Assembly (NCBI GenBank): GCA_021802115.1
Contig: JAKABA010000127.1
Location: 1 to 11,099, forward strand
DNA from: a bacterium
GTDB taxonomy: Bacteria; Chloroflexota; Dormibacteria; UBA8260; Bog-877
Reading direction: 5' to 3'
DNA: 11,099 bases
Below are positions 1 through 9,934 of the stretch, piece after piece. Each line of letters opens with the position of its first letter. Position 1 is the stretch's first letter. The position numbers were made by a program, and so were the translations under genes. The notes beneath the pieces were generated by a model. It worked only from the letters and a program-made list of their open reading frames with translations, searched no databases and was not told the origin of the DNA.

Positions 1-16
1 GGACCTCCTCCGTCAC
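1..16 (-). CDS. Start of a toxin gene (probably PIN/VapC), cut by the window edge
   Basis: Only five codons are visible on the minus strand, starting with GTG at 16-14 and reading V/M-T-E-E-V. The GTG overlaps the TGA stop of the upstream antitoxin in a GTGA 4-nt overlap. The other toxin-antitoxin pairs in this window use the same arrangement. A toxin, most often a PIN-domain VapC ribonuclease, is what normally follows a Phd/VapB antitoxin. The identity is inferred entirely from context, because no domain is visible. Confidence 0.4.
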
Positions 17-249
17 AGCCGTGGGTCGAGAACTTGGTCAATGTCGGACCGAAGAGCCCCTGGGTCGACCCAGGGCAGGCGGCTCCATCGCTCCACAAGC
101 GCGGCAGCCGCCTGGGGCGGCCGGGCCACAGGGCGTAGTTCGGCAACTGCCTTGCCGGCCCTGGTGATGGTCACCTGCTCCCCCCGTTCGACCCGATCCA
201 CCACGTCACCTCCGTGGTTGCGCAGTTCACGGATGCTCACGCTCGCCAT
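13..249 (-). CDS. Phd/YefM (VapB-type) antitoxin
   Basis: This 78-residue protein has the standard Phd/YefM N-terminus: an opening strand (MASVSIRELRNHGGDVVDRV), then GEQVTITRAGKAVAELRPV at about residues 23-41. That block is the conserved 'G..v.iTr.Gkpva.l.P' core that forms the DNA-binding dimer. The C-terminal part (ARPPQAAAALVERW onward) would be the toxin-neutralising tail. Its length is normal for the family. The ATG at 249 is preceded by a TACCAT -10-like box and a palindrome, so the mRNA is probably leaderless. The stop overlaps the start of a toxin that runs off the window. The product should bind its own promoter and inhibit the toxin. Family is confident; the exact toxin partner is not visible. 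Confidence 0.88.
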   Translation of the reverse strand: MASVSIRELRNHGGDVVDRVERGEQVTITRAGKAVAELRPVARPPQAAAALVERWSRLPWVDPGALRSDIDQVLDPRL

Positions 250-533
250 GGGACCATGGTATCACATGTGAGACAGAGCCGTCGCCCCCGAGCATGGAAG
301 CGCGGTCGACGGCGCGGATGCGGTCGCGCGTCGCCGGGACGCCGTCCGAGCCCACGCGGCCCTATCCGACAGTCAGTGCTGGCTGCAATGGCGAGCGAGA
401 AGCCCTGGTGGGACATTGCCTTTGACTTCTACTTCCAGCAGGTTGAAACAACGCCCTCAGGCGCTCTATCTCAGAGGCGCGTGCGGCCACCTGGCGCCAT
501 TCCCAGCCTGTGCCACCCCGGCCAGACCCTCCC
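250..533. other. Intergenic stretch with no convincing gene
   Basis: Apart from the antitoxin promoter and palindrome (256-271), I see nothing supportable here. Open frames on both strands exist, as expected in GC-rich DNA, but none shows a start signal or recognised motif. The segment lies between two minus-strand genes and should hold the nfuA 3' untranslated region. Confidence 0.5.
256..271 (-). promoter_or_regulatory. Leaderless promoter -10 box and palindromic operator of the left antitoxin
   Basis: On the minus strand a TACCAT (TANNNT) -10-like box spans 261-256, six bases before the ATG at 249, which places transcription initiation at about the start codon. Directly upstream, 262-271 is a perfect 10-bp palindrome, TCACATGTGA, next to the -10 box. 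It is a plausible operator for antitoxin autoregulation. No good -35 box is visible. Confidence 0.4.
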
Positions 534-1118
534 CTACTTCTTGGCCGCCTCGTAGTAGGGATTGGTCCCCGCCGCGTGGTCGGTGGTATCACGCACCTCA
601 CTGAGCTCCTGGAACCTCTCCAGCAGCGCCGTTCGCACCCCCTGACCGAGGGTCACGTCGGCCATCCCGCAGCCCTGGCAGGCGCCCCCCATGTGGATGT
701 AGGCCACGCCCTCGCTCACGTCGAGGAGGTCGATGTGGCCCCCGTGCATCGCCACCCTGGGGTTGACCTCGTCGTCGAGGAAGGCCTGGATCTGCTCCGC
801 GACCGGATCGAACCAGAGTGGATTGGGACTGTCCACTCGCAGCGCTCCGGTGAGCCGGTCGGCATCGACGGTGGCATTATCGAGGTAGGGGGCGGACGCC
901 AGCGGGATATGGAAGTAAATCCCCTCGTGCCCCTCGACGACGACGTCGCCGGGGTGCTCCTCACCCGGCGCCACAAGGTCCAGCTGGTACTGGAAGGCGC
1001 CTCCACTCCTCCCAACGATGGCGATGCGGACGGCGGCGTCAGGCTGGTGGCGGTTGGCCCGCACCTGCTCGATCCGAATGCGAGCAAACTCGGTGAGTTG
1101 AACTCGAGGACCCGTCAT
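534..1118 (-). CDS. nfuA: Fe-S cluster carrier, NfuA-type (HesB-like N-domain plus Nfu C-domain)
   Basis: This 194-residue protein is close to the 191 residues of E. coli NfuA. The N-terminal half (about 1-95) is a degenerate A-type/HesB-like domain ending in the SAPYLDNATVD segment typical of that family. The A-type cysteines are absent, as in NfuA. The C-terminal half (about 105-185) is a NifU C-terminal/Nfu domain with VNPRVAMHGGHIDLLDV and the cluster-binding motif C147-QG-C150 in MGGACQGCGMADVTLGQGV. The tail includes VRDTTDHAAG and NPYYE, which also resembles NfuA. The family carries 4Fe-4S clusters to apoproteins in the cytosol, bridging two monomers through the CxxC. The ATG at 1118 is preceded by AAGGG, a possible ribosome site. 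It is divergent from the ATP-grasp gene. The downstream 250-533 gap holds no convincing gene. Confidence 0.92.
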   Translation of the reverse strand: MTGPRVQLTEFARIRIEQVRANRHQPDAAVRIAIVGRSGGAFQYQLDLVAPGEEHPGDVVVEGHEGIYFHIPLASAPYLDNATVDADRLTGALRVDSPNPLWFDPVAEQIQAFLDDEVNPRVAMHGGHIDLLDVSEGVAYIHMGGACQGCGMADVTLGQGVRTALLERFQELSEVRDTTDHAAGTNPYYEAAKK

Positions 1119-1125
1119 TGACCCT

Positions 1126-1131
1126 TATTCT
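1126..1131 (+). promoter_or_regulatory. -10 box of a probable leaderless promoter for the ATP-grasp gene
   Basis: TATTCT (TANNNT) ends seven bases before the ATG at 1139, and there is no Shine-Dalgarno sequence between them. The same geometry recurs before other genes in this window, so the transcript probably starts at or beside the start codon. No convincing -35 box is present at 16-19 bp. Confidence 0.35.
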
Positions 1132-1138
1132 GAACCCC

Positions 1139-2416
1139 ATGGCTCCCTCGGTGATGCTCGTCCTGCCCACCCGCAGCTACCGCGCCGCTGCCTTCCTGGC
1201 CGCGGCCCGAGACCTCAGGCTGGAGGTCGTGGTTGCCGCCGACGAGCCCAGCTCGCTCGGATCGCTCATGGCCGACCGCACCCTCACCCTGGACCCGAGC
1301 CACCCCGAGGATGCCGCCCAGCGGGCGGTGGCCTTCGCCGCGCGCCACCCCGTAAGTGCTGTCATCGGCGTCGACGAGGCGGCGGTGAGCGCCGCCGCCC
1401 ACATCGCGGCTGGGCTGGGCCTCCGCCACAACTCCGTGGAGGCCGTCAGCGCCACCCGTGACAAGCGGGAGCTGCGCCGCCGTCTGGCTGCCCGTGCCGT
1501 CGCCCAGCCCGTCTCGACCGCGATCACCAGCGCAGCAACGCCCCAGGAGTTGCATGACGCCGCGGCCCGTGCCGGGTTTCCCTGCGTGGTCAAACCCGTC
1601 GACCTCGCCGCGAGTCGCGGGGTGATCCGCGCCAATACACCGGCCGAGCTAGAAGCGGCGGTGGCGAGGACCGGCCACCTTCTGCGCCGCCCGGAGCTCT
1701 GCCAACCAGACCCCGCCCCCCTCCTGGTCGAGAGCTTCATCCCGGGCCCTGAGGTGGCGGTTGAGGGCCTCCTCGATGGCGGCACCCTGCACATCCTCGC
1801 CGTACTCGACAAGCCGGACACCCCCGACGGACCGTTCTTCGAGGAAACTCTCTTGGTCGCACCATCCCGGCTGTCCACAGACAGGCTCGACCAATTGGTG
1901 CGCCTCACCGAAGCCGCGGTCTCCGCGATCGGCTTACGGGAGGGGCCGATCCATGCCGAGCTCAGGCTGGGGCCAGCCGGTGCGGCGGTCATCGAGGTCG
2001 CGGCACGATCGATCGGCGGTCGATGCAGTGGGGCCCTGCGCTTCGGCGACGGCGAGAGCCTGGAGGCGAAGATCCTGCGCCAGGCCTGCGGGCTGCCACT
2101 GGGGGATCTCACCCTGGCCTCGGGCGGGGCGGCCGCCCTGATGATCCCCATCCCGGGCGCCGGCAATCTGGAGCGTGTCGAGGGGGTTGCCGCCGCCCGG
2201 GCTGTTCTTGGCGTCATCGCTGTCGACATCACCGTGGCGCCCGGCGCTCTGCTGGAGCCCCTTCCCGAGGGCGACCGCTATCTGGGTTTCCTGATCACCC
2301 GCGCCGCCGACGCCGATGGCGCCGAGCTGGCCGCCCGGCAGGCGCTGTCGGCACTGCGCATCATCATTGCCGCGCCGCGTTCATCCGACCATCCAGGACG
2401 TCTGGCTGGTGAGTGA
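1139..2416 (+). CDS. ATP-grasp domain carboxylate-amine/thiol ligase
   Basis: The product has 425 residues. An N-terminal Rossmann-like preATP-grasp segment (MLVLPTRSYRAAAFLAAARD, then AVIGVDEAAV) is followed by an ATP-grasp fold. Visible ATP-grasp features are FPCVVKPVDLAASRGV with the ATP-binding lysine near K152, LLVESFIPGPEVAVEGLL (E198), HAELRL near 272-277, and VIEVAARSIGGR (E286, R290, G293-R295), which supplies Mg- and phosphate-binding residues. A C-terminal subdomain (GDRYLGFLITRAA) completes the L-amino-acid ligase/PurK-like layout. Such enzymes form an acyl-phosphate with ATP and couple it to an amine, and the substrate here cannot be read from sequence. A TTG at 1118 is in frame upstream but overlaps the divergent nfuA ATG. 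I prefer ATG 1139, which sits at leaderless distance from a -10 box. Confidence 0.85.
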   Translation: MAPSVMLVLPTRSYRAAAFLAAARDLRLEVVVAADEPSSLGSLMADRTLTLDPSHPEDAAQRAVAFAARHPVSAVIGVDEAAVSAAAHIAAGLGLRHNSVEAVSATRDKRELRRRLAARAVAQPVSTAITSAATPQELHDAAARAGFPCVVKPVDLAASRGVIRANTPAELEAAVARTGHLLRRPELCQPDPAPLLVESFIPGPEVAVEGLLDGGTLHILAVLDKPDTPDGPFFEETLLVAPSRLSTDRLDQLVRLTEAAVSAIGLREGPIHAELRLGPAGAAVIEVAARSIGGRCSGALRFGDGESLEAKILRQACGLPLGDLTLASGGAAALMIPIPGAGNLERVEGVAAARAVLGVIAVDITVAPGALLEPLPEGDRYLGFLITRAADADGAELAARQALSALRIIIAAPRSSDHPGRLAGE

Positions 2417-2430
2417 CATCGGCGGATCGA

Positions 2431-2466
2431 GGATCAGGCCTTGATCCACGGGGCGCGGAGCCCCGT
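2431..2466 (+). terminator. Two consecutive hairpins after the ATP-grasp gene
   Basis: Fifteen bases after the ATP-grasp stop, GGATCA/TGATCC forms a 6-bp stem (2431-2447). It is followed at once by a perfect 7-bp stem, ACGGGGC/GCCCCGT, with a GCGGA loop (2448-2466). No T-run follows, so this is at best a GC-rich, non-canonical terminator or an RNA 3' end. Confidence 0.4.
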
Positions 2467-2606
2467 CAGGAGAGGAACTTGTTGAGCCTGCGCAAACCGG
2501 TCGCGGCCTCCGTGGGCACCGCCCGCATCACGAGCTCAGGAGACCGGGAGGGTCTTCCTTTGCAACCCCCCGATCATGCCCAGCCACCCCGCACGAGGGT
2601 GCGAGA

Positions 2607-3041
2607 ATGGGCGCTGTGCACGGCATCACTGCGGGCCCAGCGAGACGCGATCGAGTCGTTGCCGCGCTCTTGGTACGTGGCGGCCAAATCCTGCTATGCC
2701 ATCGATCTCCGAACCGTCGATGGTTCCCAGACGTCTGGGATCTTCCGGGTGGGCACACCGACCCTGGGGAGACTCATGGCCGTGCGCTGGTTCGCGAGCT
2801 TCGCGAGGAACTGGGAATCATCATTCCTGAGCCTTCGGGAAAGGAATTTGCGCGGATCGTCACCTCTGACTTCGACTTGCGTATCTGGCTAGTCGACAGG
2901 TGGGTAGGGGAGATATCCAATGCTTCGCCTGAAGAGCACGATGACATGCGCTGGTTCCAGTCACACGAGGCGTCCGCCTTGTCACTTGCTCATGTGAGGT
3001 ACCCAGCCCTCATCCGTATGGCGCTTGGGGCTGCCGCGTAA
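2607..3041 (+). CDS. Nudix hydrolase (MutT-like)
   Basis: This 144-residue single-domain protein is of typical Nudix size. After a short lead, RRDRVVAALLVRGGQILLCHRSP is the first strand pair of the fold. WDLPGGHTDPGE leads into a complete Nudix box at residues 49-71, with G49, E55, R63, E64, E67, E68 and G70 matching GX5EX7REUXEEXGU. The box binds the metals that hydrolyse a nucleoside diphosphate linked to another group. The substrate (oxidised dNTP, nucleotide sugar or other) cannot be told from sequence. The C-terminal region with WLVDRWVGEI and EEHDDMRWFQ is standard for MutT-like members. It lies 190 nt downstream of the ATP-grasp gene behind two hairpins, so it is probably a separate transcript. 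The ATG at 2607 is the first sensible start, with a weak ribosome site. Confidence 0.9.
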   Translation: MGAVHGITAGPARRDRVVAALLVRGGQILLCHRSPNRRWFPDVWDLPGGHTDPGETHGRALVRELREELGIIIPEPSGKEFARIVTSDFDLRIWLVDRWVGEISNASPEEHDDMRWFQSHEASALSLAHVRYPALIRMALGAAA

Positions 3042-3049
3042 CTCAGGGG

Positions 3050-3143
3050 CCTGATCAGGGCCAGCTGTGCACAGCTCCGGCAGTTATCCACCCCCCTCCT
3101 CCCGGACCCTCCTCCCCCAAATTGCGACGAGGGGTTATTCACA
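3050..3143. other. Palindromes and two DnaA-box-like 9-mers before the helicase relic
   Basis: Within 95 nt lie a 10-bp palindrome CCTGATCAGG (3050-3059), a perfect 14-bp palindrome AGCTGTGCACAGCT (3063-3076), TTATCCACC (3084-3092, 8 of 9 to the DnaA box TTATCCACA) and TTATTCACA (3135-3143, exact to TTATNCACA). They precede a replication-type helicase relic. An origin remnant of a mobile replicon is possible. Chance similarity is also possible, and the second box overlaps the helicase reading frame. Confidence 0.3.
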
Positions 3144-4012
3144 GTCTGACGTTCCGTGGCGAGCTGACCGTCGCCCAGCAGGAGGCGGCCAACGCTCTGG
3201 CTGCCCATGACCTTGGAGTTCTCGCCGCGCCCACCGCCTTCGGCAAGACCGTGATCGGTGCCTGGCTCATCGCCCAGCGCGGCGTCAACACCTTGGTGTT
3301 GGTCCACCGGCAGCAACTGGCTGACCAGTGGCGGGAACGGCTGTCGACCTTTCTGGACATCCCTCCTCGCTCGATCGGTCAGTTCGGAGGCGGCCGCAAC
3401 AAGGGACGGGGGGTGACCGATATCGGCATGCTCCAGAGCCTGAGCCCACATGGCGAGGTCAAGGACCTCGTTGCGGACTACGGGCACGTTCTGGTCGATG
3501 AGTGCCATCACGCCCCGCCGTCAGCTTCGAGCGGGTCCGACCGCAACGCCGGCTCGAAAGGACGGGCACGACCCCATCGTCATCATGCAATGTGGGCCGA
3601 TCCGGCATCGCGTCGACGCCCGCCGGCAGGCCGCGGCGCGGCCATTCGCCCATGTCGTGGTGCCCCGGATGACGTCATTCACCCTTCCCCACGACCGGCT
3701 GACCTTGGCATCCAGGAGATCTACTCCCGTCTGGTTGCGGATCGGACCCGGACGGAGCGTATCGTGGCGGAGGTTGTCGAAGCCGTCCGGCAAGGTCATT
3801 CGCCGCTGGTCCTCACTGAACTGAGCGCACCGAGCTTCCTCGCACTGCCAGTCTCCTGGCGCGGCACCGTCCAGCAATATGTGGGCCGGCTGCACCGTCT
3901 CCATGATCGCAAGCGCGCGGTGAGCATCTTCGACTACGTTGATGTCCATGTGCCGACGCTGGCCAAGATGCACCAGAAGCGACGCCGCGGCTATGCCGCC
4001 ATCGGATACCCG
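3122..4012 (+). pseudogene. Decayed superfamily 2 helicase (TOTE-like/type III restriction-like), frameshifted and deleted
   Basis: The frame from a TTG at 3122 encodes LTFRGELTVAQQ (Q-motif-like), Walker A in APTAFGKT (residues 36-43), NTLVLVHRQQLADQWRERL (motif Ia) and the DECHH box (126-130). The reading then breaks. SFERV continues in frame 1 near 3520-3537. TATPARKDGHDPIVIMQCGP (motif III and after) continues in frame 3 from 3540. The original frame resumes near 3701 with LGIQEIYSRLVADRTR. About 13 codons appear missing before TATP. After SPLVLTE the sequence jumps to LALPVSWRGTVQQYVGRLHRLH (motif VI), so about 70 codons with motifs IV-V are gone. Homology ends near GYAAIGY (4009), and the frame runs on to 4222 without the usual end. 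The primase part found in TOTE proteins is absent upstream. The family comparison is from memory. Confidence 0.8.
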
Positions 4013-4086
4013 GTGGTCGCCCTTGACGCCACGTGGCAAGGGGTCGGCGAGACGACCAGGGGGCCCAGACCGCTGGGTTCATCATG

Positions 4087-4119
4087 GACAGGTGGGACAG
4101 GATTGACAGGATGGGCAGG
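4087..4119 (+). repeat. Four 9-nt tandem repeats (GACAGG core) over the antitoxin promoter
   Basis: GACAGG occurs at 4087, 4096 and 4105, and GGCAGG at 4114, exactly nine bases apart. The third unit contains the -35 box TTGACA of the downstream antitoxin promoter. A 9-nt period puts repeats on nearly the same helical face, which would suit cooperative binding by the small HTH protein encoded just downstream. Confidence 0.6.
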
Positions 4120-4131
4120 CCAGGCTAAGCT
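4103..4131 (+). promoter_or_regulatory. Sigma70-type leaderless promoter of the HTH-PIN pair
   Basis: A perfect -35 TTGACA (4103-4108), a 17-bp spacer and the -10 TAAGCT (4126-4131) are followed after six bases by the ATG at 4138. Transcription should start at or within a base or two of the A of the start codon. No Shine-Dalgarno site is present. This is the strongest promoter match in the window. Confidence 0.7.
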
Positions 4132-4137
4132 GGTGCC

Positions 4138-4407
4138 ATGGCCGTCGCTGCCCGTTCCCCCGATAGCTTCGTTCCTGTCGCAGCTGCCGCCGAACGCCTC
4201 CGCATCTCTCGCAACTCGGTGAAGCGGAGGCTGGCTGCGGGACTCCTCCGAGGATACGCGGACCCATCCAACGGGTACCAATACGTCTCCGAGGCGTCGC
4301 TCGCCAGCCTGGAGCACCTTCTGGAGCGCCTTCGTGCCGCCGCTCTCCTCCCCGGGTCCGAGCCGCCGGACGAGCGGTGGACTGACCCCACCGGCGACCC
4401 GGACTGA
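4138..4407 (+). CDS. Small HTH (MerR/excisionase-like) antitoxin
   Basis: The 89-residue protein has a helix-turn-helix of the excisionase/MerR type at about residues 12-42 (VPVAAAAERLRISRNSVKRR, then LAAGLLRGY). A short wing follows (SNGYQYVSEASLASL), then a helical, charged and partly disordered tail. It overlaps the following PIN-domain gene by four bases (CTGA) and has its own leaderless promoter with tandem repeats. An HTH protein in this position would bind and repress its promoter and neutralise the PIN toxin with its C-terminus. It could alternatively be a plain regulator or excisionase. The tight pairing with a PIN gene favours antitoxin. Confidence 0.75.
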   Translation: MAVAARSPDSFVPVAAAAERLRISRNSVKRRLAAGLLRGYADPSNGYQYVSEASLASLEHLLERLRAAALLPGSEPPDERWTDPTGDPD

Positions 4408-5054
4408 GCGAGCACCCCGTCGGCGGCATCCCGCCGCCCCGTCTGCGATCCGGCTCCCCACCAGCGCCGGAAGGGAAAGCCTGGCCGCGGCGCGGCGATC
4501 CCATCTTCGTCGACACGTCCTCCGTCATGGGAACGGCGGACCGCGCCGCCCTGCAGGTCTGTGCCGAGATGGGCGATCTCATCGTGTGGTGGTCGCCGTA
4601 CGTCGCCGCGGAGATCGCTCGGGTCGCTACACGAGCCCATGTCGTCTATGCGCTCGGCCAACCCGTGGCCGCCCGGTCAGCGGAGGCGGCAGCCATCGAG
4701 ATGGAGAGCGTCCGGACCACCATCGATGCCGCCATCCACGCCCTCGAGCAGTGCTGGAGTGTTCCTACGCCGGCGGCCATGCAGAACGCGGCCGCCCACG
4801 TGTCCGAGGCGGTCCCAGACGCGACCGACAGTCCTGTTCTCGCTGGCGCGATCGCCACCGGAGCACGCTTCCTGCTCTCCCGCGATGAGGCCGCATTCCC
4901 GCACGGGGGCGGCTACGGGCGCCTGGCGTTCTGGCATCCGGACACTTTCCTGACGACGCTGTTCCTCAGCGAGGACGCTGTCTACGCACGGGTGCGGCTG
5001 CTGGTGGGCGACGCCATGCGCGGCGGCGCGCTTCTGCCGCGGCGTCACCAGTAA
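4404..5054 (+). CDS. PIN-domain toxin with apparent CTG start
   Basis: The first ATG in frame (4527) would begin inside the PIN fold and lose its first catalytic aspartate. The frame is open upstream through DPIFVDTSSVMGTAD, with the Asp of VDTS at residue 37. It reaches back to CTG at 4404, which overlaps the antitoxin TGA as CTGA. No ATG, GTG or TTG lies between the preceding in-frame stop (4383-4385) and 4527. From CTG the product has 216 residues. Later PIN features are WSPYVAAEIARV with an acidic residue, PDATDSPVLAGAIATGARFL and LLSRDEAAF, matching the acidic 'D.D..ila.A...ga..l.s.D' pattern. PIN toxins are Mg-dependent ribonucleases, usually cutting tRNA or rRNA. The N-terminal 30 residues are proline-rich and unlike a PIN domain. 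A sequence error or frameshift at the start is the alternative. Confidence 0.78.
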   Translation: MSEHPVGGIPPPRLRSGSPPAPEGKAWPRRGDPIFVDTSSVMGTADRAALQVCAEMGDLIVWWSPYVAAEIARVATRAHVVYALGQPVAARSAEAAAIEMESVRTTIDAAIHALEQCWSVPTPAAMQNAAAHVSEAVPDATDSPVLAGAIATGARFLLSRDEAAFPHGGGYGRLAFWHPDTFLTTLFLSEDAVYARVRLLVGDAMRGGALLPRRHQ

Positions 5055-5079
5055 CCGAGCGCCGGTGCCACTCCCCTCG

Positions 5080-5134
5080 GTCGGCTGAGGCCGACAGAGT
5101 TCAAGATGTCGGCTTAAGGATTTGAGCCGACGTC
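5080..5134 (+). terminator. Two related hairpins after the PIN toxin
   Basis: GTCGGC/GCCGAC with loop TGAG (5080-5095) is followed by a 10-bp stem with one G-U pair, GATGTCGGCT/AGCCGACGTC (5105-5114 and 5125-5134), then TTTGAGGTTCTT. Both stems use the same GTCGGC/GCCGAC sequence, so they could also pair with each other. This is a likely terminator of the HTH-PIN operon, although the T-tract is interrupted. Confidence 0.5.
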
Positions 5135-5219
5135 TTTGAGGTTCTTCCACCCGATCTTCAGTGGAGGCCAAACTCCCTTGGCCCAACACGACTCCGATTC
5201 GGACACGGAGGAGGGGGCT

Positions 5220-5270
5220 GGAGCCCAAGGTGGGAATCGAACCCACTACCTACGCCTTACCAAGACGTTG
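5220..5270 (-). repeat. Partial tRNA-Thr copy A (3' half, att-like)
   Basis: These 51 bases match 49 of 51 positions of the 3' half of the intact tRNA-Thr gene (9861-9911), in the same orientation. They cover the discriminator base, the 3' acceptor strand, T arm, variable region and anticodon arm. Mismatches are at 5247 and 5265. Identity stops before the D arm, so no functional tRNA can form. A tRNA 3' end without its 5' half is the classic scar of site-specific integration at a tRNA gene. Confidence 0.85.
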
Positions 5271-5372
5271 GCCATGGCTGCGCCCGAATCGAATTCGCAG
5301 GGGGCGCCGATCCGCTGTACGGCCACCGCATTTCAGATCTCTGCAGTGGACTTGAAGTGCCATTGACCTCGG
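5271..5372. repeat. Cassette flank conserved with the one after fragment B (8623-8725)
   Basis: From GGCC at 5321 onward the sequence aligns without gaps to the segment starting at 8674. By eye, 38 of 60 bases match between 5311-5370 and 8664-8723. Shared words include GGCCA, CAGAT, TGCAG and TTGA. The stretch before it, 5271-5310, keeps the same length within one base. It lies between the tRNA fragment and the vapC 3' end in both cassettes. No gene is recognisable in it. Integrase arm sites or an old gene end are possible. Confidence 0.5.
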
Positions 5373-5408
5373 GCTCGCCTCGGAGTCACGGGCTGCCCCT
5401 GTACGCGA

Positions 5409-5819
5409 TCACCGAAGGACCTTGACGACAACGCCCAGAGATCGGTCCGCCCAGGTGCGGTCCGCTGTCCAGACGGTCGCACCACGCATCCTTCCCGCAG
5501 CGAGGCATAGCCGATCGGCCAGCGAGAGGTCGGGGCAGTGCGACCACATACGTGCCGCTTCGCTTGCAATCTCGGAGGTCACCGCCTCCACAGTGAGGCC
5601 GAGGGCCAAGAGCAGAGCGGCAACCTCGTCGCCATCGCGGCCGTGATGCCATGCTGTCTGCAGGACCTCCGACCAGTTCGCCGCACCGATCGAGGAGCGC
5701 TCGACGATGGCGTCGACCTGTTCGGCGCCCGGTTCCTTCTGGAGCCAAGCCAGCACCGCGGAGGCATCCAGGAGATCGGAGCCCTGGTCGTCGCCGAGGG
5801 GGGGCGCCCCTTGTGTCAC
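5409..5819 (-). CDS. VapC-type PIN-domain toxin
   Basis: The 136-residue product has the full PIN signature: D18 in LLDASAVLAWLQ, E51 in NWSEVLQTAW, D102 in LSLADRLCLAAGR, and D120 in VWTADRTWAD. Together these form the Mg-binding acidic pocket of VapC ribonucleases, which typically cut tRNA or rRNA when not neutralised. Length is normal for VapC. The ATG at 5819 overlaps the antitoxin stop by four bases (ATGA), so translation is coupled. The first 14 residues before the PIN strand are an unusually long lead. It is the distal gene of the AbrB-VapC operon in cassette 1. Confidence 0.92.
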   Translation of the reverse strand: MTQGAPPLGDDQGSDLLDASAVLAWLQKEPGAEQVDAIVERSSIGAANWSEVLQTAWHHGRDGDEVAALLLALGLTVEAVTSEIASEAARMWSHCPDLSLADRLCLAAGRMRGATVWTADRTWADRSLGVVVKVLR

Positions 5820-6103
5820 TCGTTCCCCCCGGCCGCCCTCGGGTGCTCACCCCCAGTCCAGCCATCCCGCCGAACCTCGTCGCGCCGCTCAGCGATCAAC
5901 TCCTCGGAGAGGCTGCCTGGGACCCCGGAGAACATCTCGCGAAGCCGACGCCGCGCCCCATCGACCGTCATCAAGACGATCCTCTCGCCGTCGACGCGCA
6001 GGCTGACCCGAACCCCGGGCGCCAGCCCGATTGCGCGGCGCACCTCGGCGGGGATGAGCACTCTACCCTCACGTGTCACGGTCGTGTCGTATGTGTCAGA
6101 CAT
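5816..6103 (-). CDS. AbrB/MazE-family (SpoVT-AbrB) antitoxin
   Basis: The 95-residue product has an N-terminal swapped-hairpin AbrB domain: TYDTTVTREGRVLIPAEVRR, then AIGLAPGVRVSLRVDGERIVL (about residues 4-45). The C-terminus (ARRRLREMFSGVPGSLSEELIAERR) looks like a toxin-binding helix region. An in-frame ATG lies 12 codons upstream at 6139. I prefer 6103, because MSDTYD begins right before the first AbrB strand. A TTGACA -35 box would also lie inside the longer gene, while at 6103 it is in the correct place. A 6-bp inverted repeat overlaps the start codon and should be the self-repression site. The product would neutralise the VapC encoded downstream. Confidence 0.9.
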   Translation of the reverse strand: MSDTYDTTVTREGRVLIPAEVRRAIGLAPGVRVSLRVDGERIVLMTVDGARRRLREMFSGVPGSLSEELIAERRDEVRRDGWTGGEHPRAAGGNE

Positions 6104-6139
6104 ACAATAAATATGCCATTCCATCCACCAAGCTGTCAA
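6089..6139 (-). promoter_or_regulatory. Promoter and palindromic operator of the AbrB-VapC operon
   Basis: On the minus strand, TTGACA (6139-6134), an 18-bp spacer and CATATT (6115-6110) end six bases before the ATG at 6103, again a leaderless layout. GTATGT at 6089-6094 and ACATAC at 6100-6105 form a perfect 6-bp inverted repeat with a 5-nt gap across the start codon and initiation point. It is a good candidate for AbrB-type autorepression. Confidence 0.55.
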
Positions 6140-6238
6140 CTCCTAGCCATGCTTGCCGGATAGGCTCCGCCGTCGGCAATCGGAGGCGACGCACGCCCCG
6201 GCGTGGCCGATAACCTCCAGACATCTCATATATGATAA

Positions 6239-6244
6239 TATGAT
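6239..6244 (+). promoter_or_regulatory. -10 box of the CPBP operon promoter
   Basis: The AT-rich stretch 6227-6249 contains TATGAT twice, at 6231 and 6239. The second copy lies five bases before the ATG at 6250, matching the leaderless pattern. No clear -35 box is visible. Local base composition is much richer in AT than the surrounding genes. Confidence 0.45.
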
Positions 6245-6249
6245 CAATC

Positions 6250-7203
6250 ATGATCGAGGCCGCTGGAAGCACCTTCCGCAGTCGCGTCAGTGAGGTCCAA
6301 TGGAGGAGCGTCGGCGTCTTCGCCCTGCTCGCCTATGCGTTGAGCTGGGGCACGTGGATCGGCCTCGGCGCCGCCGGGGTCCCATTCCTGATCCGGGCGG
6401 CGGCGGGGATGTTCGGGCCGATGGTCGCTGCCGTGCTCACTCGGCGCCTGCTTCGCGAGGGGTTCAGCGACATGGGGCTGCGCCCGCTCCCCGGCCATCG
6501 CCCGTATCGCTGGTACCTCCTCGCCTGGGGCGCCATCCCCCTCCTTCTGGCGGCGGGGCTGCTCCTCGGGCTCACCGTTGGGTTCGAGCACTGGAGCCTC
6601 CTTGCCAACCTCCGGCATGAGGTCTCATTGATCGCGCCGTCGCGCGAGATGCGCCTCCTTCCCCCGACTCCCGTCCTCGCCGGCATCCTGGCCGGCGCGG
6701 CGCTGACCACCACGACGCTTGAGGGCTGCATCCTGACCGCCGGCGAGGAGCTCGGCTGGCGCGGACACCTGCTCGTCCGCCTCGCGCCCCTGGGGGAAGC
6801 CCGAGCCGCCATCGCCGTGGGGGTGGTGTGGGGACTGTGGCATGCCCCACTCATCGTCCTCGACGGCTACGAGTACCCGGGACACCTGTGGTTCGGACCG
6901 TTTCTCTTCTGCCTCTTCACCGTCCCCCTCAGCGTCATTCTGGCCTGGCTGCGCTTCCGCTCTGGCAGTGTCTGGCCGGGAGCTCTCGCCCACAGTGCGC
7001 TCAATGCCCAGGCCTTGCTCGTGGTGCTTGCCCTGAGCGGCGCGAGCTCGCTCGTGGCCCCCCCAGTCGGCCTCGTCGGCATCGCACCCTTCGCAGGACT
7101 CGCGGTGTGGCTCATCGCCACCGGGCGATTGCGCTCGCCCGAGCCCTCTCCCAGGCACCCCCGGGGGACCATCGTCCCCGCCGTGGCGACGCCGAGCAGG
7201 TAG
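6250..7203 (+). CDS. CPBP-family intramembrane metalloprotease (CAAX protease/Abi-like)
   Basis: This 317-residue polytopic membrane protein has hydrophobic segments at about 21-45, 48-66, 88-110, 142-160, 185-205, 212-235, 253-275 and 277-292. The catalytic motifs of the CPBP glutamic-type intramembrane protease family are all present: E166-E167-xxx-R171 in GEELGWRGHLL, H198 in VWGLWHAP, and H248/N252 in AHSALNA. Members cleave membrane-embedded substrates. Known roles range from prenyl-protein processing to bacteriocin self-immunity and signalling, and the substrate here is unknown. The gene heads an operon in which the regulator starts two bases after its stop and a second protease-like membrane protein follows. 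The C-terminal 30 residues are a proline-rich cytosolic tail. Confidence 0.92.
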   Translation: MIEAAGSTFRSRVSEVQWRSVGVFALLAYALSWGTWIGLGAAGVPFLIRAAAGMFGPMVAAVLTRRLLREGFSDMGLRPLPGHRPYRWYLLAWGAIPLLLAAGLLLGLTVGFEHWSLLANLRHEVSLIAPSREMRLLPPTPVLAGILAGAALTTTTLEGCILTAGEELGWRGHLLVRLAPLGEARAAIAVGVVWGLWHAPLIVLDGYEYPGHLWFGPFLFCLFTVPLSVILAWLRFRSGSVWPGALAHSALNAQALLVVLALSGASSLVAPPVGLVGIAPFAGLAVWLIATGRLRSPEPSPRHPRGTIVPAVATPSR

Positions 7204-7205
7204 CG

Positions 7206-7763
7206 ATGTCAGGTACAAAGGCGGACATCCTGCTCCACCCGGTGCGGCTTCGCATCCTCCAGGCCTTCATCGGTGGCGAGCTCCTGACCGCGCGCCAGGT
7301 GGCCGCATTGTTCCCCGACATCCCGCCGGCGACGCTCTATCGCCACCTCGGAGCACTGGTCCGCGGCGGCGTTCTCCATGTTGACCGCGAGCGGAGGGTG
7401 CGCGGCACGGTGGACCGCGTCTACCGTCTCGGTTCGGCGATTCTCAGCCAGGCGGAGCTCGCCGGAACCAGCTCCGAGGATCACCTGCGTCATTTCGTCA
7501 CCTTCGTCTCTGGGCTGGTCGGCGAATACACCCGCTACCTCCGCCGGGGCTCGATCGACCTCGAGCGAGACGGCGTCGGCTATCGCATGGTCGGGATGTA
7601 TCTCACCGACGCCGAGTTGACCGAGCTCATCGCGCGGGTCCGCTCCGTGCTGAGCGAGGCGAGCGAGAACCGCCCGGGGGAGGGACGGCGCCGCCGGCTT
7701 CTCGCGACCATCCTCATGCCCATCCAGGACCCAGAGCAGCCCCCTCCGGGAGAGATGCCATGA
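7206..7763 (+). CDS. Winged-helix (ArsR-like) transcriptional regulator
   Basis: The 185-residue product begins with a classic winged HTH: ILLHPVRLRILQAFIGGELL (helix 1-2 region), TARQVAALFPDIPPATLYRH (about 28-47, HTH with the recognition helix), LGALVRGGVLHVDRERRVRG (48-67, wing), then TVDRVYRL. The remainder (residues 85-185) is a helical effector or dimerisation part with no recognised motif. The ATG at 7206 is two bases after the CPBP stop. The stop overlaps the next ATG by four bases (ATGA), so the three genes are translationally coupled. It probably controls this operon. The ligand or signal is unknown. Membership of the broad ArsR/HTH_20-like group is clear; the subfamily is not. Confidence 0.88.
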   Translation: MSGTKADILLHPVRLRILQAFIGGELLTARQVAALFPDIPPATLYRHLGALVRGGVLHVDRERRVRGTVDRVYRLGSAILSQAELAGTSSEDHLRHFVTFVSGLVGEYTRYLRRGSIDLERDGVGYRMVGMYLTDAELTELIARVRSVLSEASENRPGEGRRRRLLATILMPIQDPEQPPPGEMP

Positions 7764-8533
7764 ACGACGTCGAGGCGCGGGCGCCATCCGGGGCGACGGC
7801 TGGGGACGACGAGGCGCTCCTGCGTGGGCTCCAGACACTACGTCGCGCCTGGTGGTTCGGGATCCCGCTGCTTCTCGCCGTGCCGGTCGCCGCCGGCGCC
7901 GCCGTCATCGCCTGGCTGGCACCCCCAGATTGGGCTCAGGGCGCGCTTGGCGCTGCCGGATGGGTCGTTGCCCTCCAGCTCCGCCTGCCCGTCTCACTGC
8001 TTGCGAGGCGGAGCTCCCGCAACCGGCGCACGATTGCGTTGGCTGTGGCCAGCGCGTCGGGGCCGGCGGAGGAGTCGGTCCGGGTCGTCCTCGTCCTCCT
8101 TGTGGCCGCTGCCTTCCGGCCGGCGCTCTGGCTCGGGCTGGGCTGGGCATCGGTCGAAGTCGTGTACGCGGCGGTGAACGCCGTGGTTGCCCCACTGCTC
8201 CTACCGCGCCTGCTGCGCGACCCGAGCGAGAAGGCGCGTCAGGCACGCGAGCTCATCGTGCCGCAGCTTTCCACCACGCTCGCCGCGAGTCCGTCCGGCG
8301 TTGTCGCCCTCGGCACCGCCGAGAGGATCGGGGCCACCGCGATCCACGTCGGATTCACCCTCATCCTGGCCGCCCAGCCCTGGCTCGCTCTTCTCACCGC
8401 GCCGCTGCACACCGGAATCAATCTCGGTGCCATCGCGCTGCAGAGACGGTCCCTCCTCCTGATGGAGACGCTCGTCGTTGGCGCCGGAGCTGCGGCGTTC
8501 GCCGTCGGACTGATCGCCTTCCATCACCTGTGA
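7760..8533 (+). CDS. YhfC-like intramembrane protease homologue
   Basis: The 257-residue membrane protein has segments at about 33-53, 60-80, 90-118, 122-148, 192-210 and 233-254. Three residue clusters resemble the YhfC/PrsW branch of glutamic intramembrane proteases: E104-E105-xx-R108 in GPAEESVRVVLVLL, E188-R189 with H196 in TAERIGATAIHVGFTLIL, and H217-xxx-N221 in LHTGINLGAIAL. Similarity beyond these motifs is not obvious to me, so the family call is tentative. GGGAGAG lies five bases before the ATG as a ribosome site, and the start overlaps the regulator stop. It ends the operon headed by a CPBP protease, giving two protease-type membrane proteins around one regulator. It may be a partner, target or immunity component. 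Confidence 0.65.
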   Translation: MNDVEARAPSGATAGDDEALLRGLQTLRRAWWFGIPLLLAVPVAAGAAVIAWLAPPDWAQGALGAAGWVVALQLRLPVSLLARRSSRNRRTIALAVASASGPAEESVRVVLVLLVAAAFRPALWLGLGWASVEVVYAAVNAVVAPLLLPRLLRDPSEKARQARELIVPQLSTTLAASPSGVVALGTAERIGATAIHVGFTLILAAQPWLALLTAPLHTGINLGAIALQRRSLLLMETLVVGAGAAAFAVGLIAFHHL

Positions 8534-8571
8534 TGGCACCGACCCGGCGCGTCCTGGATCGACATCACACT

Positions 8572-8622
8572 GGAGCCCAAGGTGGGAATCGAACCCACGA
8601 CCTACGCCTTACCAGGACATTG
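8572..8622 (-). repeat. Partial tRNA-Thr copy B (3' half, att-like)
   Basis: 48 of 51 positions match the intact tRNA-Thr 3' half. The first 43 bases, up to the anticodon loop (8614), are identical, and the mismatches (8615, 8617, 8619) lie after it. Copy B shares CT just outside and the change at 8617 with copy A but not with the intact gene, so A and B are closer kin. The D arm is absent. The position of the break in identity fits crossover in the anticodon loop. Confidence 0.85.
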
Positions 8623-8725
8623 GACCAAAATGGAAGCGGTTGCATATTCGAAATCGGCTCCAGCCGGCTCTTTGGCCAACATCTTCCAGATTCTTGCAGC
8701 AGATTGGAAGCGCGCTTGAACTTGG
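8623..8725. repeat. Cassette flank conserved with the one after fragment A
   Basis: This is the counterpart of 5271-5372: collinear within one base from the end of the tRNA fragment and about 63% identical over 8664-8723. It sits between the tRNA fragment and the vapC stop. On the minus strand the vapC frame stays open after its stop codon through this segment into the tRNA fragment (8796-8608), but I do not recognise the peptide. Confidence 0.5.
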
Positions 8726-8796
8726 GTGTCCATCGTCAACACGGGACCCGATTCAGCCACCAGCTTGGAAGGCAAGCGCTCTGTCAGAGGGTGGCC

Positions 8797-9222
8797 CTAC
8801 ACCGGGAAGAGCGCATAGCCCGCAGCAGAGGCGGCGCGACGCAGATCGTCATCCCAGCACGCGACACGATCCACCCGGCGCGGCGATCCCAGACGCTGCA
8901 GAGCGGCGAGATGCACCGCGTCGTAGCCACGGAGGTGGTGGCTCTCAGCCAGGTCTCCGGCCCGCTTTGCCACCGCCATATCCACGACGATCGGAGAGGT
9001 CGCTGCCCATACCCGTTCCAGCAGTCGCCTGGCCCTGGTGAACGCGGCGCCCGGGAGGCGCCCTGCTCGCTCCGCCGAGGCAATCGCAGCCCGAAGCTCG
9101 ACGTAGCCGATGTGAGCGCAGGCGAGCACCTCCAGGTCTTGACGTAGGGTCGCCAGCTCGGCCGAACCCTCCTCCGCGATGATGAGCTTGACCAGCGCGC
9201 TGGTGTCCGCGTAGACGATCAG
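8797..9222 (-). CDS. VapC-type PIN-domain toxin with CTG start
   Basis: From CTG at 9222 the product has 141 residues and begins MIVYADTSALVKLIIAEEGS, a textbook PIN N-terminus with D6. Further acidic pocket residues are E42 in GYVELRAAIA, D101 in LRGYDAVHLAALQRL, and D124/D125 in ACWDDDLRRAA. The first ATG/GTG-type start inside the frame (GTG 9129) would remove the first catalytic strand. The CTG overlaps the antitoxin TGA as CTGA and sits exactly where the family starts. VapC toxins are Mg-dependent site-specific ribonucleases acting on tRNA or rRNA. It is the second gene of the Phd-VapC operon of cassette 2. Confidence 0.9.
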   Translation of the reverse strand: MIVYADTSALVKLIIAEEGSAELATLRQDLEVLACAHIGYVELRAAIASAERAGRLPGAAFTRARRLLERVWAATSPIVVDMAVAKRAGDLAESHHLRGYDAVHLAALQRLGSPRRVDRVACWDDDLRRAASAAGYALFPV

Positions 9223-9491
9223 CGCCGCTGCTCCAGAACGAAGTCGACCGCGGTCTTCGCCCCAGGGGTCATGGCCACCGGCCCGTCGCCATCCAGCAGC
9301 GGCGCTCGGTACTCGATGCCACCGCTCTCCACCAGGGCAGCGATCTGCGGCGGGACACCGCCGGGCTGATACGCGACGATCCGGGCCACGGGTCGACCCC
9401 GGTCGGTCACCACCACCTCCTCTCCCCTGCTCGCCCGCTTGATCGCCCGGCTCAGCTCCCCGCCCTTCAGGGCCCGAACTCCCAGCTCCAT
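9219..9491 (-). CDS. Phd/YefM (VapB-type) antitoxin
   Basis: The 90-residue product has the Phd fold: MELGVRALKGGELSRAIKRA, then SRGEEVVVTDRGRPVARIVA at about residues 21-40, the conserved DNA-binding dimer core. A disordered, toxin-binding C-terminus follows (GGIEYRAPLLDGDGP region). Length is typical. The stop overlaps the CTG of vapC. The ATG at 9491 has a TAGAAT -10 box nine bases upstream, framed by an 8-bp inverted repeat that should serve as its operator. It differs clearly in sequence from the other Phd-type antitoxin at 13-249, so the two are not a recent duplication. Confidence 0.9.
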   Translation of the reverse strand: MELGVRALKGGELSRAIKRASRGEEVVVTDRGRPVARIVAYQPGGVPPQIAALVESGGIEYRAPLLDGDGPVAMTPGAKTAVDFVLEQRR

Positions 9492-9492
9492 T

Positions 9493-9522
9493 GTGGCCTC
9501 ATTCTACCACTTCTGAGGCCAC
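9493..9522 (-). promoter_or_regulatory. Promoter -10 framed by a perfect inverted repeat (Phd-VapC operator)
   Basis: GTGGCCTC (9493-9500) and GAGGCCAC (9515-9522) are perfect 8-bp arms 22 bp apart centre to centre, about two helical turns. The minus-strand -10 box TAGAAT (9506-9501) lies between them. A dimeric antitoxin bound here would block RNA polymerase. Confidence 0.6.
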
Positions 9523-9763
9523 CGCCTGAACCCGCCACGTCGGGCGGCGGGAGAGGTCCAGCGAGGGCCAATAGGCGAGCCGGCCGGCGCGGCCATTCGG
9601 GCATCTCGCGGTCACCGTTTTCGGCGGTCGCAAGAGGAGCCATGTTCCTCCCAAGGTAGGCGCGCGGGGGGCCACCAGCGGCTCAGAACAGCGCGTACGG
9701 TCGCCCATACTGGCCTTCTCGACTCCGCGATGTCCAAGTTCGTGAAAGACGTTGGCCTCCCGA
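9523..9763. other. Gene-free stretch between the antitoxin operator and the folded element
   Basis: I see no convincing gene here. The frames that stay open lack a start signal and known motifs. The one notable word is AAGACGTTGGCC at 9746-9757, which recurs exactly at the edge of tRNA fragment A (5262-5273). Confidence 0.4.
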
Positions 9764-9828
9764 CTTGATCCAACGCTTTTGAAGGGCTTGCGCCCTGTGA
9801 TAATCATCTCGCGATTATCAGGATCAAG
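9764..9828. other. Compact three-way-junction inverted-repeat element
   Basis: Outer arms CTTGATCC (9764-9771) and GGATCAAG (9821-9828) pair perfectly. Inside are AGGGC/GCCCT with a 4-nt loop (9783-9796) and TGATAATC/GATTATCA with a 7-nt loop (9798-9820), also perfect. The 65-nt unit would fold as a closed junction with two arms on either strand. It lies 34 nt beyond the 3' end of tRNA-Thr. No T-run follows. It could be an RNA end or processing structure, a recombination site or a small interspersed element. Confidence 0.55.
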
Positions 9829-9862
9829 ATCGTCCCTTGCCCCACAAGCGACATCCGCGCGG

Positions 9863-9934
9863 AGCCCAAGGTGGGAATCGAACCCACGACCTACGCCTTA
9901 CCAAGGCGTTGCTCTACCTCTGAGCTACTTGGGC
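9863..9934 (-). tRNA. tRNA-Thr(GGU)
   Basis: The 72-nt cloverleaf is complete. The acceptor is GCCCAAG/CTTGGGC, the D arm GCTC/GAGC, the anticodon stem ACGCC/GGCGT with loop TTGGTAA (anticodon GGT at 9902-9900), and the T arm GTGGG/CCCAC with TTCGAAT. The CCA end is not encoded. It reads ACC/ACU threonine codons. Its 3' half is repeated twice upstream in the window, marking it as an integration target. A TACCAT -10-like box lies at 9960-9955 on the minus strand. Confidence 0.97.

Follow-up and report, generated by a model that had tools for sequence, protein, structure and literature searches.

A probable tandem array of integrase-less, att-flanked segments with toxin-antitoxin pairs at a tRNA-Thr gene of a Dormibacteria bacterium

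Introduction

Cis-mobilizable elements (CIMEs) are defined in the accessible part of PMC5704250, which also describes their accretion: they are segments flanked by attachment (att) sites, devoid of integration and transfer genes, that are stacked at the 3' end of one gene. The 11,099-nt stretch of DNA analysed here (hereafter the window; contig JAKABA010000127.1 of assembly GCA_021802115.1, from a Dormibacteria bacterium) holds a region of similar build between positions 5,220 and 9,934. Very probably, segments that lack an integrase and are flanked by att sites have accumulated there in tandem (accretion) at a tRNA-Thr(GGT) gene, and the class that suits this array best is that of tandem CIMEs. 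Such elements and their tandem accretion were reportedly treated by Pavlovic in 2004 for the ICESt1-related elements of Streptococcus thermophilus. The CIMEs of PMC5704250, as far as its accessible part goes, come from integrative and conjugative elements (ICEs) or integrative and mobilizable elements (IMEs), whereas the smallest interval of the present array is 1.24 kb long, carries only a toxin-antitoxin (TA) operon, belongs to a member of the Dormibacteria and is putatively mobile.

Another close counterpart is found in the ssrA islands of Dehalococcoides, of which, according to the accessible part of PMC3146451, 15 out of 31 have no integration module and are possibly CIMEs. As in the present array, multiple islands lie in tandem downstream of one RNA gene, with direct repeats of its 3' end between them; their target is ssrA, the transfer-messenger RNA (tmRNA) gene, their recombinase is the serine recombinase DsiB, their repeat measures 20 bp and their cargo comprises reductive dehalogenases (PMC3146451, accessible part). 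A first-pass annotation of this DNA had called stacked, small, non-autonomous cassettes unusual, which overstates their rarity, since CIMEs and tandem islands without an integration module had already been described (PMC3146451, accessible part). In contrast to the ssrA islands, the array described here sits at tRNA-Thr, has a tyrosine integrase in relatives, uses subterminal sites and carries TA cargo.

Salmonella genomic island 1 (SGI1) is said to be far larger than the cassettes found here, and tycheposons are reportedly proposed satellite-like integrative elements that resemble these cassettes in targeting tRNA genes. The tycheposons are named in the accessible part of PMC11389934. In that of PMC5704250, SGI1 is likewise an integrated element with a TA pair, sgiAT, without which its loss rises when a helper induces excision; it differs in having its own integrase. 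Judged by titles and the openings of abstracts, none of the papers listed in literature searches reports TA cassettes at tRNA genes, or elements of such a kind in Dormibacteria. The kind of element is already known; what is new is a small cassette that has TA genes only and retains both arms, together with its host group and the att layout mapped here. For a little-studied soil lineage, the layout of tRNA-Thr insertions is now defined as a core at the anticodon loop with a 19-bp site 51 nt away on one side and about 71-95 nt away on the other, and integrase-less segments keep this layout while carrying TA pairs. It thus becomes possible to test whether minimal hitch-hiking cassettes spread TA operons, or whether these operons are only what survives last when islands decay.

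Direct copies of the tRNA-Thr 3' portion

The array is built around one intact tRNA-Thr gene and two direct copies of its 51-nt 3' portion, all in the same orientation:

9861..9934, minus strand: intact tRNA-Thr (GGT) gene (ARAGORN; Rfam RF00005, 75.8 bits), the putative insertion target, which the latest insertion would have restored
8572..8622, minus strand: c2, displaced tRNA-Thr 3' portion (tRNA positions 24-74), 48/51 identical
5220..5270, minus strand: c1, displaced tRNA-Thr 3' portion (positions 24-74), 49/51 identical, probably the older one

ARAGORN calls a single tRNA gene in the window, the tRNA-Thr (ggt), and the Rfam scan gave tRNA matches only. The two partial copies and one intact gene of the first-pass annotation are confirmed by a comparison with chance similarity: the runner-up 51-mer on the plus strand of the window reaches 27/51, and the best scores in 200 base-shuffles of positions 1-9860 average 27.0, with a maximum of 31/51. 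The mismatches of c2 (positions 27, 29 and 31) are confined to the 5' anticodon stem and the first loop base, and c1 differs at positions 29 and 47. From position 32 to 74 there is no change in c2 and one in c1, which fits c1 as the older displaced half.

These copies bound two cassettes. Cassette 2 (8623-9860, 1.24 kb) adjoins the tRNA gene, retains sites at either end and contains a single VapBC-like pair. Cassette 1 (5271-8571, 3.3 kb) holds a VapBC1 pair, a CPBP protease, a regulator and a membrane protein, and it has no tRNA-side site.

Attachment-site arms

Relatives were sought in a comparison set of 110 genomes of the class (Ca. Dormibacteria), in which genomes, contigs and loci are denoted by G, C and L numbers; among the proteins most similar to the ligase encoded at window 1139-2416, several carry Dormibacteria names. 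A DNA alignment of the ends reveals that the non-tRNA segment before the copies is conserved among cassettes with unrelated genes, and within it lies a 19-bp site, roughly AACCTGAAAtgCGTTGGCC. The sites of the window, scored with a position weight matrix (PWM), are the following:

8674..8692, minus strand: distal-arm site of cassette 2, AATCTGGAAGATGTTGGCC; PWM 17.1 against 14.9 for the best of 40 shuffles; 52 nt outside tRNA position 24
5321..5339, minus strand: distal-arm site of cassette 1, GATCTGAAATGCGGTGGCC; PWM 21.4; 51 nt outside tRNA position 24
9739..9757, plus strand: tRNA-side site of cassette 2, in inverted orientation, TTCGTGAAAGACGTTGGCC; PWM 17.3; 104-122 nt past the tRNA
9768..9786, minus strand: weak direct tRNA-side site of cassette 2; PWM 6.8, within noise; 75-93 nt past the tRNA
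5125..5143, minus strand: tRNA-side site beyond c1, AACCTCAAAGACGTCGGCT; PWM 22.0, the window's best; 77-95 nt past c1; a third, older element probably begins here
5102..5115, minus strand: inverted partner of the 5125-5143 site, AAGCCGACATCTTG, read by eye

The PWM was built from eight sites outside the window, chosen by eye after their likeness to the window sites had been noticed, and is thus non-blind. Its top four matches in the window are those at 5125 (22.0), 5321 (21.4), 9739 (17.3) and 8674 (17.1), followed by one of 10.7, and the 40 shuffles, which preserved dinucleotides, stayed at or below the value given above. The distance from the site to tRNA position 24 is 51 nt in seven of the eight site-bearing ends of the alignment (c1, G343, two in G408, G417, G160 and G311), c2 being the end with 52 nt; in the ninth end, on G416:C178, the site is truncated. 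On the tRNA side, G417:C209 and G160:C54 have the site 71-89 nt beyond tRNA-Thr, and in G407 a site scoring 17.0 is found 72-90 nt beyond it. The weak site at 9768-9786 is close to the position in G417 and G160 and could form an inverted repeat with 9739-9757. The copies are more than bare tRNA fragments: they have a conserved attP-like arm at fixed spacing, which is also present in relatives, two of them with an integrase.

The specificity of the site was examined with a 12-site PWM on 293 loci (2.59 Mb, overlaps counted), and all sites scoring at least 20 fall at a tRNA-Thr copy, remnant or core. Five such places are outside the PWM (G417:C125, G160:C13, G311:C20 near 277 kb, G416:C178 near 483 and G392:C59), and three sites elsewhere, scoring 17.5-19.4, are in unrelated organisms (L012, L027, L060). 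The scan is partly circular: the presence of tRNA-Thr copies was the reason for including many of the loci, and a profile of arm plus tRNA had already matched all but one of the five new places.

At the ends in G160:C13 and G311:C20, the arm and CATCTTGGTAAGGCG are followed by non-tRNA DNA (L268, 9717-9804; L269, 9917-10002); these may be secondary-site insertions of the same element family or rearranged ends. Because the mismatches of c2 fall at positions 27-31 and these ends retain the arm with CATCTTGGTAAGGCG, crossover probably takes place in or just 3' of the anticodon loop, which supports its earlier placement near that loop. A second set of tRNA-Thr ends (L142, L174, L176, L178, L140 and L141) seems by eye to share a different site, about GCGTGAGGCGTTGGCC, and perhaps belongs to another integrase family at the same tRNA.

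Integrases and the proposed order of insertions

With Pfam at E values up to 0.01, no integrase-like protein was found among the 18 open reading frames (ORFs) of the window, and tblastn of the window with two sets of integrases from relatives, 7 and 12 in number, gave best E values of 0.032 and 0.017, taken as noise. The earlier statement that the intervals hold no recognisable recombinase is thereby upheld. No relaxase or secretion-system family is matched by the 18 ORFs in Pfam either. The segments therefore agree with CIMEs in lacking integration and transfer genes of their own (as far as these searches go) and in having att sites at one target gene, on both sides of cassette 2 and on the distal side only of cassette 1; the combination of an own integrase with a mobilisation or conjugation module that marks an IME or ICE was not found.

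Possible related elements that do bear an integrase, and that have a tRNA-side site, occur in G417 and G160, where tRNA-Thr is followed by the site and then by a gene for a 325-aa tyrosine integrase (G417:C209, G160:C54). The two integrases are 96% identical to each other; PF00589 and PF02899 are matched in G417, and Xer models below their cut-offs. An integrase adjoining tRNA-Thr, which the first-pass annotation proposed to look for, is thus present in relatives within the class, and was not seen in G416, the genome that shares the locus and whose assembly may be incomplete. Other integrase genes follow tRNA-Thr in G402 and G311, and also in G128, judged by motif and BLAST similarity. Ten homologues of the 325-aa integrase (44-62% identical) had their surroundings examined, and each of them begins next to a gene for tRNA-Gly, -Phe, -Arg or -Pro, so the integrase family targets tRNAs.

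Each insertion would have been made by a tRNA-Thr-specific, Xer-like tyrosine integrase, putatively of this family, with crossover at about the anticodon loop. The incoming element would bring a new tRNA 3' half, so that the tRNA stays intact, and the old half would be displaced to the far end of the element, beside the element's own distal arm. From newest to oldest, the order would be tRNA, cassette 2, c2, cassette 1, c1 and an eroded third element with a helix-turn-helix (HTH)/PIN gene pair, the integrase having been lost from each segment. Serial integration at one tRNA, as first proposed, is supported by the copies and the arm sites; the count of two cassettes overlooked a probable third, older element to the left of c1, to which the tRNA-side site after c1 points. 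Since cassette 2 is flanked by sites, an integrase provided in trans could in principle excise it, whereas cassette 1, with its distal arm only, could leave only as part of a joint excision with cassette 2. Loss of the segments would be selected against by the TA pairs.

Cassette cargo

The genes of cassette 2 are:

9219..9491, minus strand: Phd/YefM-like antitoxin (TIGR01552, 25.8 bits, cut-off 20.8; PF02604 below cut-off)
8797..9219, minus strand: toxin VapC2 (PIN; PF01850, 30.9 bits), with a 91% aa homologue in G392

Those of cassette 1 are:

5816..6103, minus strand: antitoxin VapB1 (AbrB/MazE fold; PF04014, 35.6 bits on 5816-6139; TIGR01439)
5409..5819, minus strand: toxin VapC1 (PIN; PF01850, 40.3 bits)
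6250..7203, plus strand: CPBP/Rce1-like intramembrane protease (PF02517, 55.2 bits, E 9e-15)
7206..7763, plus strand: HTH_20-type regulator (PF12840, 54.0 bits)
7760..8533, plus strand: membrane protein, weakly YhfC-like (PF10086, E 0.002, 18.1 against a cut-off of 24.2 bits)

In both intervals a PIN toxin gene adjoins a small antitoxin gene, as in type II TA systems of the VapBC type, a function predicted from the sequence; the TA cargo of the first-pass annotation is thus found in each. Its two-protease operon is half certain: the CPBP/Rce1 protein is clear, and the second protein stays below the YhfC metalloprotease cut-off and, among the 110 class genomes, has a match at E ≤ 1e-6 only in G416. 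PADLOC, run on eight window proteins, found no convincing defence system, with weak helicase and Csa3-like HTH matches, and no satellite packaging or replication family of Pfam occurs among the 18 window ORFs (PHROGs were not used). The VapC2 frame (8797-9231) has its first ATG, GTG or TTG at 9129, inside the PIN domain; its natural start would be a CTG that overlaps the antitoxin stop, and the G392 DNA is identical there.

The locus and its modules in relatives

The same locus, with the same two copies, occurs on contig C174 of G416, shifted by 3,026 bases and 99.9% identical to the window over 10,759 bases (7 mismatches). The two differ by a 3,026-bp indel, at which the BLAST matches overlap by 8 bases (341-348, region 333-379) and which suggests strain variation or an assembly difference. 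Further tRNA-Thr 3' halves are present in related genomes: partial copies that start at position 17-34 number at least 26, in at least 15 of the 110, and ARAGORN calls no intact tRNA at any of these 26. A 98% match at G055:C8:34674-34723 covers tRNA-Thr positions 1-50 only and is a 5' rather than a 3' fragment.

TA modules recur together with the att ends. In G343, vapBC1 is 81% identical at the aa level, and the distance from the vapC stop to tRNA position 24 is 138 bp both there and in the window; in G416:C178, a truncated vapC1 has a tRNA-Thr fragment 70 bp on. These are two of the three matches to VapC1, besides itself, that reach at least 69%. The locus on G416:C178 (L136), which belongs to the species of the window, shows two degenerate att ends of this family (478-591 and 9284-9387) 8.8 kb apart, the second directly after the truncated vapC1. 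The DNA of vapBC2 (window 8788-9522) matches G392:C59 over 735 bp with 92% identity; there, vapC2 is directly followed by an att remnant in inverted orientation, with a site scoring 20.0 and a tRNA 3' end. In G408:C34, an AbiEi/AbiEii pair lies between two tRNA-Thr fragments 3.2 kb apart; this contig has none of the 7 listed (of 11) PF00589 matches of G408, and none was seen among the ORFs read there.

Beyond the class, viral contigs gave nothing relevant for the LAL ligase of the window, VapC1, the exact 42-nt tRNA-Thr 3' end, the tRNA-Thr integrase or the pattern of arm and core. Searched with the 4.9-kb array, PLSDB plasmids gave 18 records, in all of which the match is short and covers either the tRNA or 89 bases of VapC, and the best 20 of 86 matches to INPHARED phages are all at the tRNA. 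A broad scan of genome contigs found relatives of at most 50% identity among the matches listed (80 loci).

Evidence against and alternative histories

Several observations weigh against an array of inserted, mobilizable segments. A tRNA-Thr copy is missing from the 3.4-kb locus of the vapC1 relative that ranks third (G407:C149, 69%), as it is from those of the 18 more distant ones, and the tetranucleotides of G343:C93 are nearer to G416 contigs than to its own bin, so that it may be mis-binned. An empty site flanked by the same DNA as in the window was not found, and the neighbouring LAL ligase (window 1139-2416) has a counterpart of more than 60% identity at E ≤ 1e-105 only in G416 among the class genomes. 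The comparison of G409 with G407 is imperfect: in G409, tRNA-Thr is followed by DNA that in G407 begins 2.26 kb past the displaced fragment, on another contig, and the region upstream of the tRNA is syntenic. This is consistent with an insertion, though G409 does not offer a clean empty site.

The sites and the proposed integrase raise objections as well. The score of 17.0 in G407 is equalled at two unrelated places in the same scan (L137:3861, L147:16066), the PWM scans gave no tRNA-side site after c2 or after fragment b of G408, and of the tRNA-side sites of cassette 2, the direct one does not rise above noise and the strong one is inverted. G416's own homologue of the integrase (52%) is at tRNA-Gly(TCC); the other PF00589 match of G416 (C83), Xer-like in appearance, has no tRNA on its 6.2-kb contig. 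No tRNA-Thr integrase is present among the PF00589 matches and homologues of G416, an assembly that may be incomplete, and this speaks against mobility, as do the tRNA-side site missing from cassette 1 and the failure to find cassette 2, with its two ends, a second time. The short, Xer-like integrase matches no arm-binding-domain family; the 19-bp sites may therefore bind another factor.

Within the accretion reading, plain decay is on balance the favoured history: larger islands (IMEs or prophages) would have integrated serially and lost their integrase and most of their cargo, and nothing would have moved at the present small size. Cassette 1, with neither a tRNA-side arm nor an integrase, favours such a loss from larger elements, and the integrase-bearing elements of G417 and G160, which start at tRNA-Thr and reach the contig end after 9.5 kb and 16.4 kb, before any displaced copy is met, as well as a partial helicase ORF in the left region, point the same way. 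Less easily accommodated are cassette 2, which keeps both end sites with its TA operon, the recurrence of TA-plus-att modules with the same 138-bp spacing, and the identity of vapBC2 to a distant genome, which stops close to the operon.

A possible but doubtful history is that cassette 2 and its kin integrate as units of ~1.3 kb by means of an integrase in trans, as a tyrosine-integrase analogue of miniature inverted-repeat transposable elements (MITEs). It would account for the sites on both sides of cassette 2, for the vapBC1 modules of G343 and G416:C178, which have the same end, and for the AbiE interval of G408, in which no integrase was seen; however, cassette 2 was not found a second time with its two ends, only one side of vapBC2 in G392 has an att remnant, which is inverted, and the perhaps incomplete G416 assembly has no tRNA-Thr integrase. 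Bolder, and unlikely, is the general proposal that Dormibacteria hold minimal mobile cassettes, each one TA operon between two tRNA-Thr att arms, which integrases in trans integrate, excise and reshuffle, and which pile up at one tRNA as an addictive array. If true, they would be a tyrosine-integrase counterpart of MITEs or of clusters of attC sites lacking integron-integrases (CALINs), with the TA pair as the element's own retention device.

An origin of the fragments in segmental duplication or in gene conversion of the tRNA, instead of integration, would agree with their same orientation and high identity, but is very improbable and was rejected: a non-tRNA arm stands at fixed spacing in different genomes, where the adjoining genes differ, and at two ends the same arm and core run into non-tRNA DNA. 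Least credible, and likewise rejected, is an integron-like array (CALIN) with the tRNA ends as attachment sites, despite several TA-bearing segments in one orientation with like sites between them and a distant match of the relatives' integrase to the XerA/integron-integrase model, as the segments are separated by tRNA-Thr 3' ends that have sites on either side (tRNA only in Rfam, no dedicated attC model being used), the integrase reaches the cut-off of none of the integron models, and cassette 1 comprises several genes in both orientations.

Probable third element and left part of the window

The accretion of segments at tRNA-Thr probably extends beyond c1. As c1 is followed by a tRNA-side site, two genes to its left probably belong to a third, older and eroded element:

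4138..4407, plus strand: small HTH-like protein of the probable third element (HTH_17, E 0.008, below cut-off)
4527..5054, plus strand: PIN_3 toxin-like protein of the probable third element (PF13470, 28.7 bits, cut-off 27)

The profile, run on L135 with filters off, gave no far-end copy for this element, only c1, c2, the tRNA and weak matches of at most 9.7 bits. The ORF at 3122-4222 matches ResIII/DEAD helicases over about its first third, and the rest of it may be frame-shifted or rearranged. Another TA piece lies at the window edge (13-249): a gene for a Phd/YefM antitoxin that has no evident partner.

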